A stretch of DNA of 64,000 nt from Maricaulis maris. Lineage in GTDB: Bacteria; Pseudomonadota; Alphaproteobacteria; Caulobacterales; Maricaulaceae. Location: the NCBI RefSeq assembly GCF_003634045.1, contig NZ_RBIM01000001.1:310001-374000 (forward strand), given 5' to 3'. The translations under genes and the position numbers were made by a program. How positions within the stretch are numbered: position 1 is the stretch's first letter; each line of letters begins with the position of its first letter. Shown here in pieces: positions 13,296 through 16,126 of this stretch. The notes under the pieces are model-generated. The model had not been told where the DNA came from and ran no database searches. It worked only from the letters and a program-made list of their open reading frames with translations.

Positions 13296-13329
13296 GGGAG
13301 GGAGCGCGTCGGGGGTCGCGCTCCCTCCC
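13296..13329. terminator. 13-bp perfect hairpin between convergent units
   Basis: GGGAGGGAGCGCG and CGCGCTCCCTCCC pair perfectly around an 8-nt loop. It lies 38 bp after the ABA4-like gene and beyond the minus-strand attenuator terminator. There is no T-run, so termination would be weak or factor-assisted. Confidence 0.5.
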
Positions 13330-13375
13330 TGGGTTTGCATTCCGGCCGCCATGGGGGGAGAGCGGCGCAGAACAC

Positions 13376-13408
13376 AAAAAACCCTCCTCGAGCGGGCGCT
13401 CGGGAGGG
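13376..13408 (-). terminator. intrinsic terminator of orphan leader RNA
   Basis: On the minus strand CCCTCC-CGAGCG, loop CC, CGCTCG, one bulged A, GGAGGG, then six T. This is a strong rho-independent terminator 27 nt downstream of the leader-peptide stop. No gene follows in this orientation; the next gene is on the plus strand. Confidence 0.82.
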
Positions 13409-13434
13409 CCAACAACCGGGACTGTGGGGCCAGT

Positions 13435-13527
13435 CTACCGGGTGGAAGCGTCATCCTCCGCGCGCACAACCACCGCCGGCCAAAGGGCCGGGCGGGAGAG
13501 GCGATATCGGGTCTGAACTGGGTTCAT
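13435..13527 (-). CDS. candidate 30-aa leader peptide of an orphan attenuator
   Basis: A 30-codon frame that starts ATG-AAC-CCA and contains the run GTG-GTT-GTG (VVV) followed by RAEDDAST and a TAG. The codons around VVV lie in a helix whose arms (CCGGCGGTGG and CCACCCGG) mimic a 1:2 pause hairpin, and a strong terminator follows. This is the architecture of amino-acid biosynthesis attenuators such as ilv leaders, but no biosynthetic gene is downstream. A good promoter (TTGAAC-N17-CATAAG) lies upstream. Translation is unproven. Confidence 0.5.
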   Translation of the reverse strand: MNPVQTRYRLSRPALWPAVVVRAEDDASTR

Positions 13528-13590
13528 GATCGTCTCTTCTTGTGCGCAGGACCGGATGGGCCGGTCCCGAGCGGGGCTAACGGGAGGCGG

Positions 13591-13619
13591 CTTATGACGC
13601 CGTCCGACTTCGCGTTCAA
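13591..13619 (-). promoter_or_regulatory. sigma70-type promoter of the orphan leader RNA
   Basis: On the minus strand TTGAAC, 17 bp, CATAAG, about 65 bp upstream of the leader-peptide ATG. Spacing is ideal; both hexamers deviate from consensus by one to two bases. Confidence 0.5.
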
Positions 13620-13703
13620 GGCGAAATCGACACGCCTGGGTTGGATTGGCGCGAAGTGTGGCTTTTGGGTGACGGGTTCGTGGTGTGGGGTGCCGCCTTC
13701 AGT

Positions 13704-13805
13704 CCTTCTCCCGTGGGAGAAGGTGCCCGAAGGGCGGATGAGGGGGATCAGCCCGCCATCATCGGGATTTCCCCCTCACCCTGCCCCTCTCCCAAGGGAG
13801 AGGGG
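13704..13805. repeat. REP-like bilateral palindromic repeat
   Basis: Two hairpin ends (CCTTCTCCCGTGGGAGAAGG and the 22-bp palindrome at 13784-13805) enclose GATGAGGGGG...CCCCCTCACCCT, which also pair with each other. This is a familiar intergenic repeat of proteobacterial genomes. It lies directly at the 3' end of the pentapeptide-repeat gene. Confidence 0.7.
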
Positions 13806-13813
13806 AAGCGTGC

Positions 13814-16126
13814 CTAGTTGATCTGGAATTTCCGGCGCAGGGCGAGGGCCGAGAGAAAGAGGAGGATCAGCGAGATCAGCGATTGGCCCGCCGACAGCAG
13901 GCCCAGCAGCAATCGCGTGCCCGGTGCGTCCGCTGTCATCGCGGCGAAGGGCTGGCTGTCGGTCAGGGCGAATTTGAGCGGGCCGAGCATGTTGGTCAGG
14001 GCCAGTTCCAGAGCGGCGAGGCTGGCGCGGTTCAAGGCTGGGTCCGGATCGGGCCAGAGCTGGTTTGTATCCTGGCTCAGCAGGCCGAGGGCGATCATCG
14101 TGTAGAGTAGGAAGAAGATTATGGCCGTGGCGAGCAGGGCAAGCAGCGGCCGCGACGACGAGGCGCCATAGTCGGCCACGAGGCCGTAAAATCGTGAGGC
14201 GAGATTGGAGAAAATGGAGATCTGTGTTTCCGGCTTCTGCTTGATCCAGTAGACCGGCCGCCGCTCCCGCGCTTTCAGCTCCATCCGGTGAAAGGCCTGT
14301 TCGCGCTGCCGGTCACTGCCGCGCGCCATGGCGTGTTTGAGGACCAAACAGCCTTTTTCCAGCGCGGCGAAACGGGCGTCGCGGCCCCGCCTGTCGCGAT
14401 CACCATCCTTGTTGGCGTCATAGGACGGGTCCGTGCAGATGGCGGCATCGCGGCGAACAGCGGCTTCTGTCTCGTCGCGGGCCCGGTGGAAGTCGGCATT
14501 CTTGGGATGGTTTGAGCCGATCAGCACGCCCTGATCGAATATGGCCCCCTGAAAGGCGGAGAAGGGCAGGTGTTCCACACCTTTGAAATCCACCGTCTCA
14601 TGAAAGCGCGCCCCTTCCAGCGCGCCATTGCGGTGTTCAGCCTGTTCGGGAAAGCGGCAGCGAGCAAAATCCGCGAGGGCATGGAAGGTCGAACCGCGGA
14701 AGCTGAGTTCCGCACAAAACCGGGCGCCGGACCGGACGGCAGTGTCGCGCAAGCCAAACTGAAAGGCGTCGCCATATCGGACACCACCCTCGAACGTGCA
14801 ATCCCGAAAATAGGTGGCTTTTTCGAATTGGGCCTCAATAAAACGGCACTCATGCTTGGCGCTTATTTTGTCGAAGTTCGCGTTACCGCCGGAGAATTGC
14901 GCTTGATTGAAGGAAGCGTCACCGCCGGAGAATTGCGCTTTTTCGAAGTAAGCGTCTCCGCCGGAGAATTGCGCTTCTTTGAAGTTAGCGTCTCCGCCGG
15001 AGAATTGCGCTTCACTGAAGATAGCGTTTCCGCTGGAGAATTGCGCGTCCCAGAAGTAAGTGTTACCGCCGGAGAATTGCGCTTCTCTGAAGATAGCGTA
15101 TCCGCCAGAGAATTGCGCTTGTTGGAAGTTAGCGTATCCGCCGGAGAATTGCGCTTCTGTGAAGTCAGCGTCTCCGCCGGAGAATTGCGCTTCATTGAAG
15201 TCAGCGTCTCCGCCGGAGAATTGCGCTTGATTGAAGTAAGCGTATCCGCCGGAGAATTGCGCATTTTCGAAGCCAGCGTATCCGCCGGAGAATTGCGCTT
15301 TTCCGAAGTTCGCGTATCCGCCGGAGAATTGCGCTTGTTGGAAGCTCGCGTCTCCGCCGGAGAATTGCGCTTGGCTGAAGTTCGCAGGGGAGTCAAAGCG
15401 GGCGTTTCCCAGATGCAGATGTTCGAGCCAACGGGTGTGATGGGCGGTCAGATTGTAGGCACCGGGTTGGGCAGCCTGTGAGTTTGCCCCGGGCGCATCG
15501 CTATTGGTCGATCGGGCGCGGTCGGTATCAGGGTGTTCAGGCTGGCTGGGTGGGCGGGGCAGGGCGCGAAGATGGGCGCCGGTCAGCTGGGCCCGGTGAT
15601 CCGCGCCCTTGAGGGACCCTTTTTCAAAGCCATCTGTATGGATATCGCAAGATTTCGTATGACTGAACAGGCGCTCCAATTCGTCGGTGAGGGCTGTCCA
15701 CAACGGATGCGCGGGATCAATTTTCCAACTTTCCGAGCCGTCTTTCCAGCGTTCGGGCAAATGCAGGATGTGGAAACGCGGTTGGTTTGGCGTCTCGATC
15801 AGGGCGCCGTCCGCGATCAGCCGCTTGTCCCCACGCCAATGCCGGGACGCGGCATCCCAGCGGAAATAGTCCTGCAAGCTGGCAGGCCGTGCCGAAGCCG
15901 TGGCGTGGCTGGCCTCAATCAGGGTTTTCGTCTTGGCCTCGGTGTCTTCCTGTACCGACCAACCAATCCACGGATGGACCGGATCGCCATCCTCGTCCAG
16001 CCGTCCCAACCCCTCCCAGCTATAATCCGCCGCCCACCAGCCCTTCCACCATTCCTCGTCCGCCGCTTTGATCGCGGCCTGGCGTTCTTCCTTGGTCAGC
16101 ATGGGTTTGGCGCTCTTGTCCTGCAT
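13814..16126 (-). CDS. pentapeptide-repeat protein with two-helix membrane tail
   Basis: Product of 770 aa. Residues 1-240 are a tryptophan- and charge-rich region of unknown fold. Residues 253-420 are fourteen near-identical 12-residue units, AQFSGG(D/Y/N)AxFxx, that should form a right-handed quadrilateral beta helix. More divergent A-F repeats follow to about residue 560. The C-terminus has two hydrophobic helices (about 661-683 and 739-763) joined by a 55-residue loop that includes a hydrophobic stretch, reminiscent of two-helix ion channels. No signal peptide is visible, so the repeat domain is probably cytoplasmic. Function unknown. It stands alone, divergent from lysK. Confidence 0.85.
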   Translation of the reverse strand: MQDKSAKPMLTKEERQAAIKAADEEWWKGWWAADYSWEGLGRLDEDGDPVHPWIGWSVQEDTEAKTKTLIEASHATASARPASLQDYFRWDAASRHWRGDKRLIADGALIETPNQPRFHILHLPERWKDGSESWKIDPAHPLWTALTDELERLFSHTKSCDIHTDGFEKGSLKGADHRAQLTGAHLRALPRPPSQPEHPDTDRARSTNSDAPGANSQAAQPGAYNLTAHHTRWLEHLHLGNARFDSPANFSQAQFSGGDASFQQAQFSGGYANFGKAQFSGGYAGFENAQFSGGYAYFNQAQFSGGDADFNEAQFSGGDADFTEAQFSGGYANFQQAQFSGGYAIFREAQFSGGNTYFWDAQFSSGNAIFSEAQFSGGDANFKEAQFSGGDAYFEKAQFSGGDASFNQAQFSGGNANFDKISAKHECRFIEAQFEKATYFRDCTFEGGVRYGDAFQFGLRDTAVRSGARFCAELSFRGSTFHALADFARCRFPEQAEHRNGALEGARFHETVDFKGVEHLPFSAFQGAIFDQGVLIGSNHPKNADFHRARDETEAAVRRDAAICTDPSYDANKDGDRDRRGRDARFAALEKGCLVLKHAMARGSDRQREQAFHRMELKARERRPVYWIKQKPETQISIFSNLASRFYGLVADYGASSSRPLLALLATAIIFFLLYTMIALGLLSQDTNQLWPDPDPALNRASLAALELALTNMLGPLKFALTDSQPFAAMTADAPGTRLLLGLLSAGQSLISLILLFLSALALRRKFQIN
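14867..15370 (-). repeat. fourteen tandem 36-bp coding repeats
   Basis: The 36-bp unit encodes AQFSGG(D/Y/N)AxFxx; the constant part reads GGAGAATTGCGCTT on the plus strand. The positions encoding the second and fourth-fifth variable residues differ while the scaffold bases are almost identical, suggesting recent expansion with selection or drift at the variable codons. Not CRISPR: the whole array is translated. Confidence 0.88.

Follow-up and report, generated by a model that had tools for sequence, protein, structure and literature searches.

What does a leader-like element control when no gene lies behind it? The window, a 64,000-nucleotide stretch of the Maricaulis maris genome, carries such an element on its minus strand. 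The first-pass annotation had described a promoter, a short open reading frame (ORF), an intrinsic terminator and a 13-bp hairpin, and all of these can be read directly in the sequence. It had also stated that no structural gene lies downstream. This is confirmed in the window, where the gene that comes after the last hairpin is a convergent ABA4-like gene (PF14108; 12799 to 13257, plus strand).

Layout of the element

All parts of the element are on the minus strand. The promoter, TTGAAC-N17-CATAAG, is at 13591 to 13619 (TTGAAC at 13619 to 13614, CATAAG at 13596 to 13591). Region 1, CCGCCTCCCG (13581 to 13590), lies where the transcript probably begins and is present in many, not all, genus copies. 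The leader ORF (13435 to 13527) runs from an ATG at 13527 to a TAG at 13435 and reads MNPVQTRYRLSRPALWPAVVVRAEDDASTR before the stop. It is preceded by purine-rich GAGACGA and contains the codons GTG GTT GTG at 13473 to 13465. Hairpin H2 (13476 to 13491) lies within the ORF over Trp codon 16. Region 2, GCGCGGAGG (13455 to 13465), lies near the ORF end and is a candidate antiterminator arm, as judged from the partner-position test at rtcB loci described below. Hairpin H3 (13413 to 13444; CACCCGG..GACTG/CAGTC.CCGGTG) spans the stop codon and belongs to the RNAalifold consensus.

The intrinsic terminator (13376 to 13408) consists of CCCTCCCGAGC..GCTCGAGGAGGG TTTTTT. Its stem has a one-base bulge and it ends in six T. 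Hairpin HP5 (13337 to 13375), with the C-rich loop CTCCCCCC, lies between the terminator and HP6. HP6 (13296 to 13329) is a perfect 13-bp hairpin that also has a C-rich loop. A simple scan of the window for sigma-70 promoter and terminator consensus listed neither the promoter nor the terminator of the element, so the case for both rests on conservation. No Rfam match at gathering score was found in the window element or in 10 other leader loci.

In the genus, the element adjoins the lysine-tRNA ligase (LysRS) gene (NF001968). The start of this gene is about 360 to 450 nt from the leader ORF end in G017, G006 and G016. In the window, a pentapeptide-repeat gene (13814 to 16126) separates the ligase gene from the element. 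The intergenic stretch at 13700 to 13810 is palindrome-rich (CTTCTCCC.GGGAGAAGG, CTCCC.TGGGAG) and resembles a dispersed repeat.

Conservation in Maricaulis

We compared 19 Maricaulis genomes, including the window genome (G000). BLAST matched the element region in 14 of them, the window genome among these, apart from short weak matches. An RNA model from the ORF to the terminator (R1) found the element in the same 14 of the 19 genomes, with one strong copy in each (E of 5.3e-32 or better). G004 contained one additional weak match (E of 0.0013). A second copy in the window genome had been proposed as something to look for, and the R1 search found a single copy. A second RNA model, covering HP5 and HP6 (R2), matched directly adjoining the leader in these 14 genomes, and the 19 genomes contain no other match to it.

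Five genomes have no R1 match (G003, G008, G010, G011 and G013). Two of them are incomplete, G008 (69%) and G013 (65%), and neither shows the LysRS locus. In G011, the contig stops just past an apparent promoter, as seen by eye. The element is deleted in G003 and G010; the latter retains the 3' arm of HP6 (by eye).

The terminator and, ahead of the ORF, a CTTG-N20-[C/G]AT promoter are present in all 14 copies, and the leader ORF is exactly 30 codons long in each. H2 has 5 to 9 bp in every copy, with the pair types CGGCC/GGCCG, CGACC/GGTCG and CAGCC/GGCTG. Each of the ten consensus pairs of H3 is kept in 12 to 14 of the 14 copies. One inner pair of the terminator is altered on both sides in three sequences of the 14-copy alignment. 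The outer stem of HP5 has double changes at three pairs, with up to 4 of the 14 sequences broken per pair. In HP6, 7 of the 13 pairs have changes on both sides, and all 13 are kept in all copies.

Association with rtcB

The same-strand structural gene that should follow an attenuator is missing in the window and is present, as rtcB, in half of the genus copies. rtcB is the next gene in G001, G002, G005, G006, G009, G012 and G014. In these seven genomes, its same-strand Pfam match starts 229 to 256 nt past the terminator, and a protein scan confirmed PF01139 in the G002 copy. The window genome has no rtcB, nor do G004, G007, G015, G016, G017 and G018, all of which carry the element. The gene is absent also from G003, G008 and G010. 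A small conserved gene follows rtcB (KVIVERPRxGWR...; 9706 to 10179 in L039, and equivalents) and has no Pfam or NCBIfam match.

In G006 and G012 (L032 and L038), rtcB and a second gene sit between HP6 and the ABA4-like gene. The G006 arrangement indicates that the arrangement in the window is a deletion. A LysRS gene tree was made for 13 of the 14 element loci; G014 was left out because its locus has no LysRS. In this tree, rtcB-bearing G006 and the orphan G017 form a group (support 0.86), and three further orphans (G018, G004 and G007) have rtcB-bearing relatives as near branches. If losses alone are counted, the tree requires at least four of rtcB, even if G006 regained the gene; gains may nonetheless have occurred, and the branch order within the nearest clade is weak. 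G010 and G015 have a common junction after HP6 (by eye).

Across the genus, the element is thus kept in its promoter spacing, the length of its ORF, its hairpins and its terminator, with rtcB behind seven copies and missing from the other seven element-bearing genomes. On this division, the window copy reads as the leader left behind by the deletion of an rtcB operon. The first-pass annotation had offered the relic of a deleted operon as a fallback, and this idea is borne out. We conclude that the window element is probably the intact attenuator of an rtcB operon (RNA ligase, tRNA repair) whose structural genes were deleted.

The proposal of an amino-acid attenuator stood in part. The leader-peptide architecture holds up; the link to ilv or valine does not. 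A valine or ilv attenuator, or an RNA sensing valine supply in trans, would draw on the GTG GTT GTG run in the window. The three valine codons, which had been taken as the signal, occur in 1 of the 14 copies, the window copy alone. The other copies have AVV, AIV, VTA, AIA, AFA, ARM, EFA or GFA at this position. Both arms of the 1:2 hairpin that had been drawn over these codons, CCGGCGGTGG/CCACCCGG, are likewise found in the window copy only (1 of 14). Behind the element lie rtcB (seven copies) and, in the scanned orphans, ABA4-like or unmatched ORFs, and not ilv genes. The ABA4-like gene follows in the scanned orphans G000 and G016, and the ORFs that follow in G004, G007 and G018 have no Pfam family match. 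With the run and the hairpin specific to the window, rtcB downstream in seven copies and a single copy in the genome, we rejected the valine reading as highly improbable.

Composition of the leader peptide

The leader peptides are unusually diverse. They contain 12.36 distinct residues per 18, compared with 11.13 in windows of RtcB and LysRS proteins (z of 6.1, n of 47), and the +1 and +2 frames of the leaders contain 9.9. Gln, Pro, Tyr, Asn and Arg are more frequent in them than in RtcB and LysRS (Gln 6.3% versus 2.7%, Tyr 3.7% versus 2.0%), and Val, Gly, Ile and His are less frequent. The leader peptides contain no run of one codon. The genus leader ORFs show no synonymous bias, with variation of 0.345, 0.382 and 0.311 at the three codon positions. 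A selected peptide product was rejected because the codon positions vary about equally. From the diverse residues, the lack of a codon run and the lack of synonymous bias, we read the leader peptide as sensing the speed of translation in general or the state of the tRNAs.

A sensor of the colicin-E5-type tRNAs (Tyr, His, Asn and Asp) as a group was also considered and dropped. These residues make up a share of 0.140 in the leaders and 0.151 in the RtcB/LysRS background. The share in the first background was 0.141; this background may contain antisense ORFs, and RtcB and LysRS proteins were used as the later backgrounds.

Leaders outside the genus

A like layout lies upstream of rtcB in Hyphomonas, Hirschia, Ponticaulis, Caulobacter, Brevundimonas and some Rhodospirillales. 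By strict fixed rules, a leader precedes rtcB in 36 of 75 distinct, mostly alphaproteobacterial loci. The same rules gave no hit in 1500 dinucleotide shuffles and 19 hits in 4000 random windows. When another 4000 random windows were drawn, 14 of the 15 hits were known leaders. The other 39 rtcB loci have no leader by these rules, and some of them hold another rtcB type beside YrlA RNAs. This second type (L051, L052, L046 and L101) has YrlA Y-RNAs (Rfam RF02553) and tRNAs as neighbours. G002 has both types, one YrlA-adjacent and one with the leader. Permuted tRNA genes near the second type were considered and dropped, since the four loci scanned contain YrlA RNAs and tRNAs. In Luteimonas (gammaproteobacteria; L091 and L092), the rtcB protein is 69 to 70% identical to that of Maricaulis, and the 320 nt read contain no such leader. 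The protein identity suggests a possible gene transfer.

The R1 model was also run across 299 genomes of the order and matched in 34. We read 20 of these loci (L210 to L229). Eight were leaders before rtcB, four were leaders before TROVE/Ro genes (L215, L216, L220 and L225), three were leaders before MATE transporters (L214, L218 and L228), and the remaining five were chance-like or ambiguous. PF05731 and PF01554 were confirmed in one protein each, from a TROVE and a MATE leader locus. By coordinates, R1 hits are also found a short way upstream of the MATE gene in G043 and G600, and of the TROVE gene in G087.

From the protein side, a leader was found at 7 of 15 TROVE loci. These were 7 of the 9 closest loci and 0 of the 6 more distant ones; one of the two closest loci that had none starts too near a contig end. 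For MATE, a leader was found at 5 of 30 loci, drawn from 63 genomes with a match. The TROVE and MATE scan accepted leaders lacking GGAGG and was run with no separate shuffle control, and two of its 12 hits (L245 and L279) have no GGAGG-like stretch. The Pfam TROVE model retrieved four genes of another kind, with no such terminator in the stretches read. In L234 to L237, about 700 to 1000 nt lie between the leader terminator and the TROVE gene, seemingly with tRNA-like stretches (odd ORF translations). A scan of L234 gave no Rfam match at gathering score. Because the other leaders aligned poorly, a broad RNA model of them was given up.

These loci bear on whether the element is an attenuator at all. 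It could instead be a stand-alone, structured small-RNA gene that merely happens to lie before rtcB in many species. Such a gene would account for the conserved promoter spacing, the terminator, the covarying hairpins and the persistence of the element without rtcB. It does not explain why the ORF length is kept or why leaders of this layout stand before genes of three unrelated families, and we consider it quite improbable.

Pairing and proposed switching

Among the features expected of an attenuator, a short ORF with a putative ribosome-binding site lies ahead of the terminator, the ORF having 30 codons in all 14 genus copies, and the intrinsic terminator follows the ORF. A competing arm was sought upstream of the terminator. 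In 47 of the 75 rtcB loci, the terminator has the form CCTCC..GGAGG-T; their selection made no demand on ORF or GGAGG. In 39 of these 47 loci, the 8-nt stretch that pairs best with the terminator 5' arm is found 25 to 75 nt upstream, compared with 70 of 235 shuffled stretches. This position agrees with an antiterminator open to blocking by a ribosome that has reached the end of the ORF. In 42 of 47 non-redundant picked leaders, the partner is in the last third of the ORF, a test that is partly circular as the picking had favoured ORFs with GGAGG near the end. Per-sequence energy shuffles count against the 2:3 pairing, which reached p<=0.05 in only 15 of 71 leaders (about 4 expected), with a median p of 0.225. 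A pairing of region 1 with region 2 (the 5' end with GGAGG) was unsupported in the same kind of shuffles (6 of 71 leaders) and was discarded on this result.

Preferring the attenuator reading, we propose the following switch. Ribosomes that reach the leader ORF end would cover GGAGG. The CCCTCC/GGAGGG terminator would then form and transcription would stop. A ribosome slowed or stalled earlier in the ORF, by a damaged or scarce tRNA or by a translation inhibitor, would leave GGAGG free for pairing. GGAGG would pair with the CCTCC arm of the terminator, and RNA polymerase would read on into rtcB. The leader peptide would sample many different tRNAs, and not a run of one codon. The element most likely senses translation stress or tRNA damage, stopping transcription if the ORF is freely translated and allowing read-through if ribosomes slow. 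In the window, read-through could add only the hairpins HP5 and HP6.

Fate of the orphan copies

The orphans may have been kept for a function of their own. In this explanation, the terminated leader RNA or the HP5 and HP6 hairpins act in trans, as a C-loop small RNA. Among the nine rtcB-less genomes with a resolved locus, seven retain the ORF, the terminator, HP5 and HP6, and the LysRS tree has at least four separate rtcB losses, provided that the gene was lost and not gained. The seven orphans diverge from their rtcB-bearing relatives just past HP6 (by eye). In the four close orphans, identity over the ORF and terminator is 0.88 to 1.00, compared with 0.73 to 0.78 at LysRS four-fold sites.

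The deletions in G010 and G003 count against this explanation, and the rate tests are mixed. Lineage-specific changes are few in the window (3 of 232) and in G017 (2), matching rtcB-bearing G006 (2). They are near the four-fold counts in G015 (6/232 versus 8/246) and in G016 (13/232 versus 11/246), the count for G016 being inflated as it is the outermost of the five compared. Two of the four close orphans therefore drift at a near-neutral rate. The persistence of the element also has other possible causes. The rtcB losses may be recent, the long hairpin may itself set the deletion ends, and HP6 may serve the convergent gene. On balance, we regard function in trans as unlikely.

Comparison with known systems

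The trp, ilv and his leaders are ribosome-mediated attenuators of amino-acid operons. Like them, the element has a promoter, a short ORF, an intrinsic terminator and a candidate competing arm. It differs from them in that its family has no run of regulatory codons and encodes unusually diverse peptides. The targets also differ, being RNA repair (rtcB and TROVE) and a MATE pump. The attenuator RNA rnTrpL of Sinorhizobium reportedly acts in trans. For peTrpL of Sinorhizobium, action of an attenuator product in trans is likewise reported (PMC7298713). Compared with rnTrpL and peTrpL, the peptide of the element has no synonymous conservation, and action in trans is only a candidate reading here.

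The nearest mechanism is that of the duf1127 uORF of S. meliloti, also an alphaproteobacterial leader ORF, which senses translation efficiency and is induced by tetracycline (PMC12218461). It is proposed to be Rho-dependent, and no intrinsic terminator was found (PMC12218461). The terminator of the element, by contrast, is intrinsic and conserved, and the targets are other genes. The rtcBA and rsr-yrlBA-rtcBA operons are controlled by RtcR, an activator with a CARF domain that binds tRNA fragments (PMC7790460). Like the targets of the element family, they include rtcB and Ro-type genes, with a link to tRNA damage (PMC7790460). Control there is by an activator; here it would lie in the leader RNA. 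In Acinetobacter baumannii under tigecycline, rtcB was reportedly the most induced gene (PMC7652931), though control there may differ. The reading of the element as a sensor of translation or tRNA state fits both the link of rtcB operons to damaged tRNA (PMC7790460) and this induction (PMC7652931).

The literature search had most subscription journals outside its range, and it retrieved no report of such a leader before rtcB in titles and abstract openings. A search on RtcB, attenuation and leader peptide retrieved, at the same depth, one paper, on MexXY. Searches on rtcB with terminator and small RNA, and on RtcB with Hyphomonas, retrieved nothing.

Implications

A wider reading joins these points, and taken as a whole we consider it unlikely. 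The elements may form an undescribed alphaproteobacterial attenuator family, in which codon-diverse peptides test many tRNAs and switch on rtcB, Ro/TROVE and MATE genes when translation falters. In rtcB-less Maricaulis, the orphan sensor may control its own HP5-HP6 C-loop RNA in trans. The rtcB control that we found in print is the activator RtcR (PMC7790460). A leader that ties RNA repair directly to ribosome speed would be a different control of rtcB in Alphaproteobacteria. Such a leader could also serve as a simple means of reporting tRNA damage. In the Maricaulis orphans, nature has set up a test of the fate of an attenuator after gene loss.
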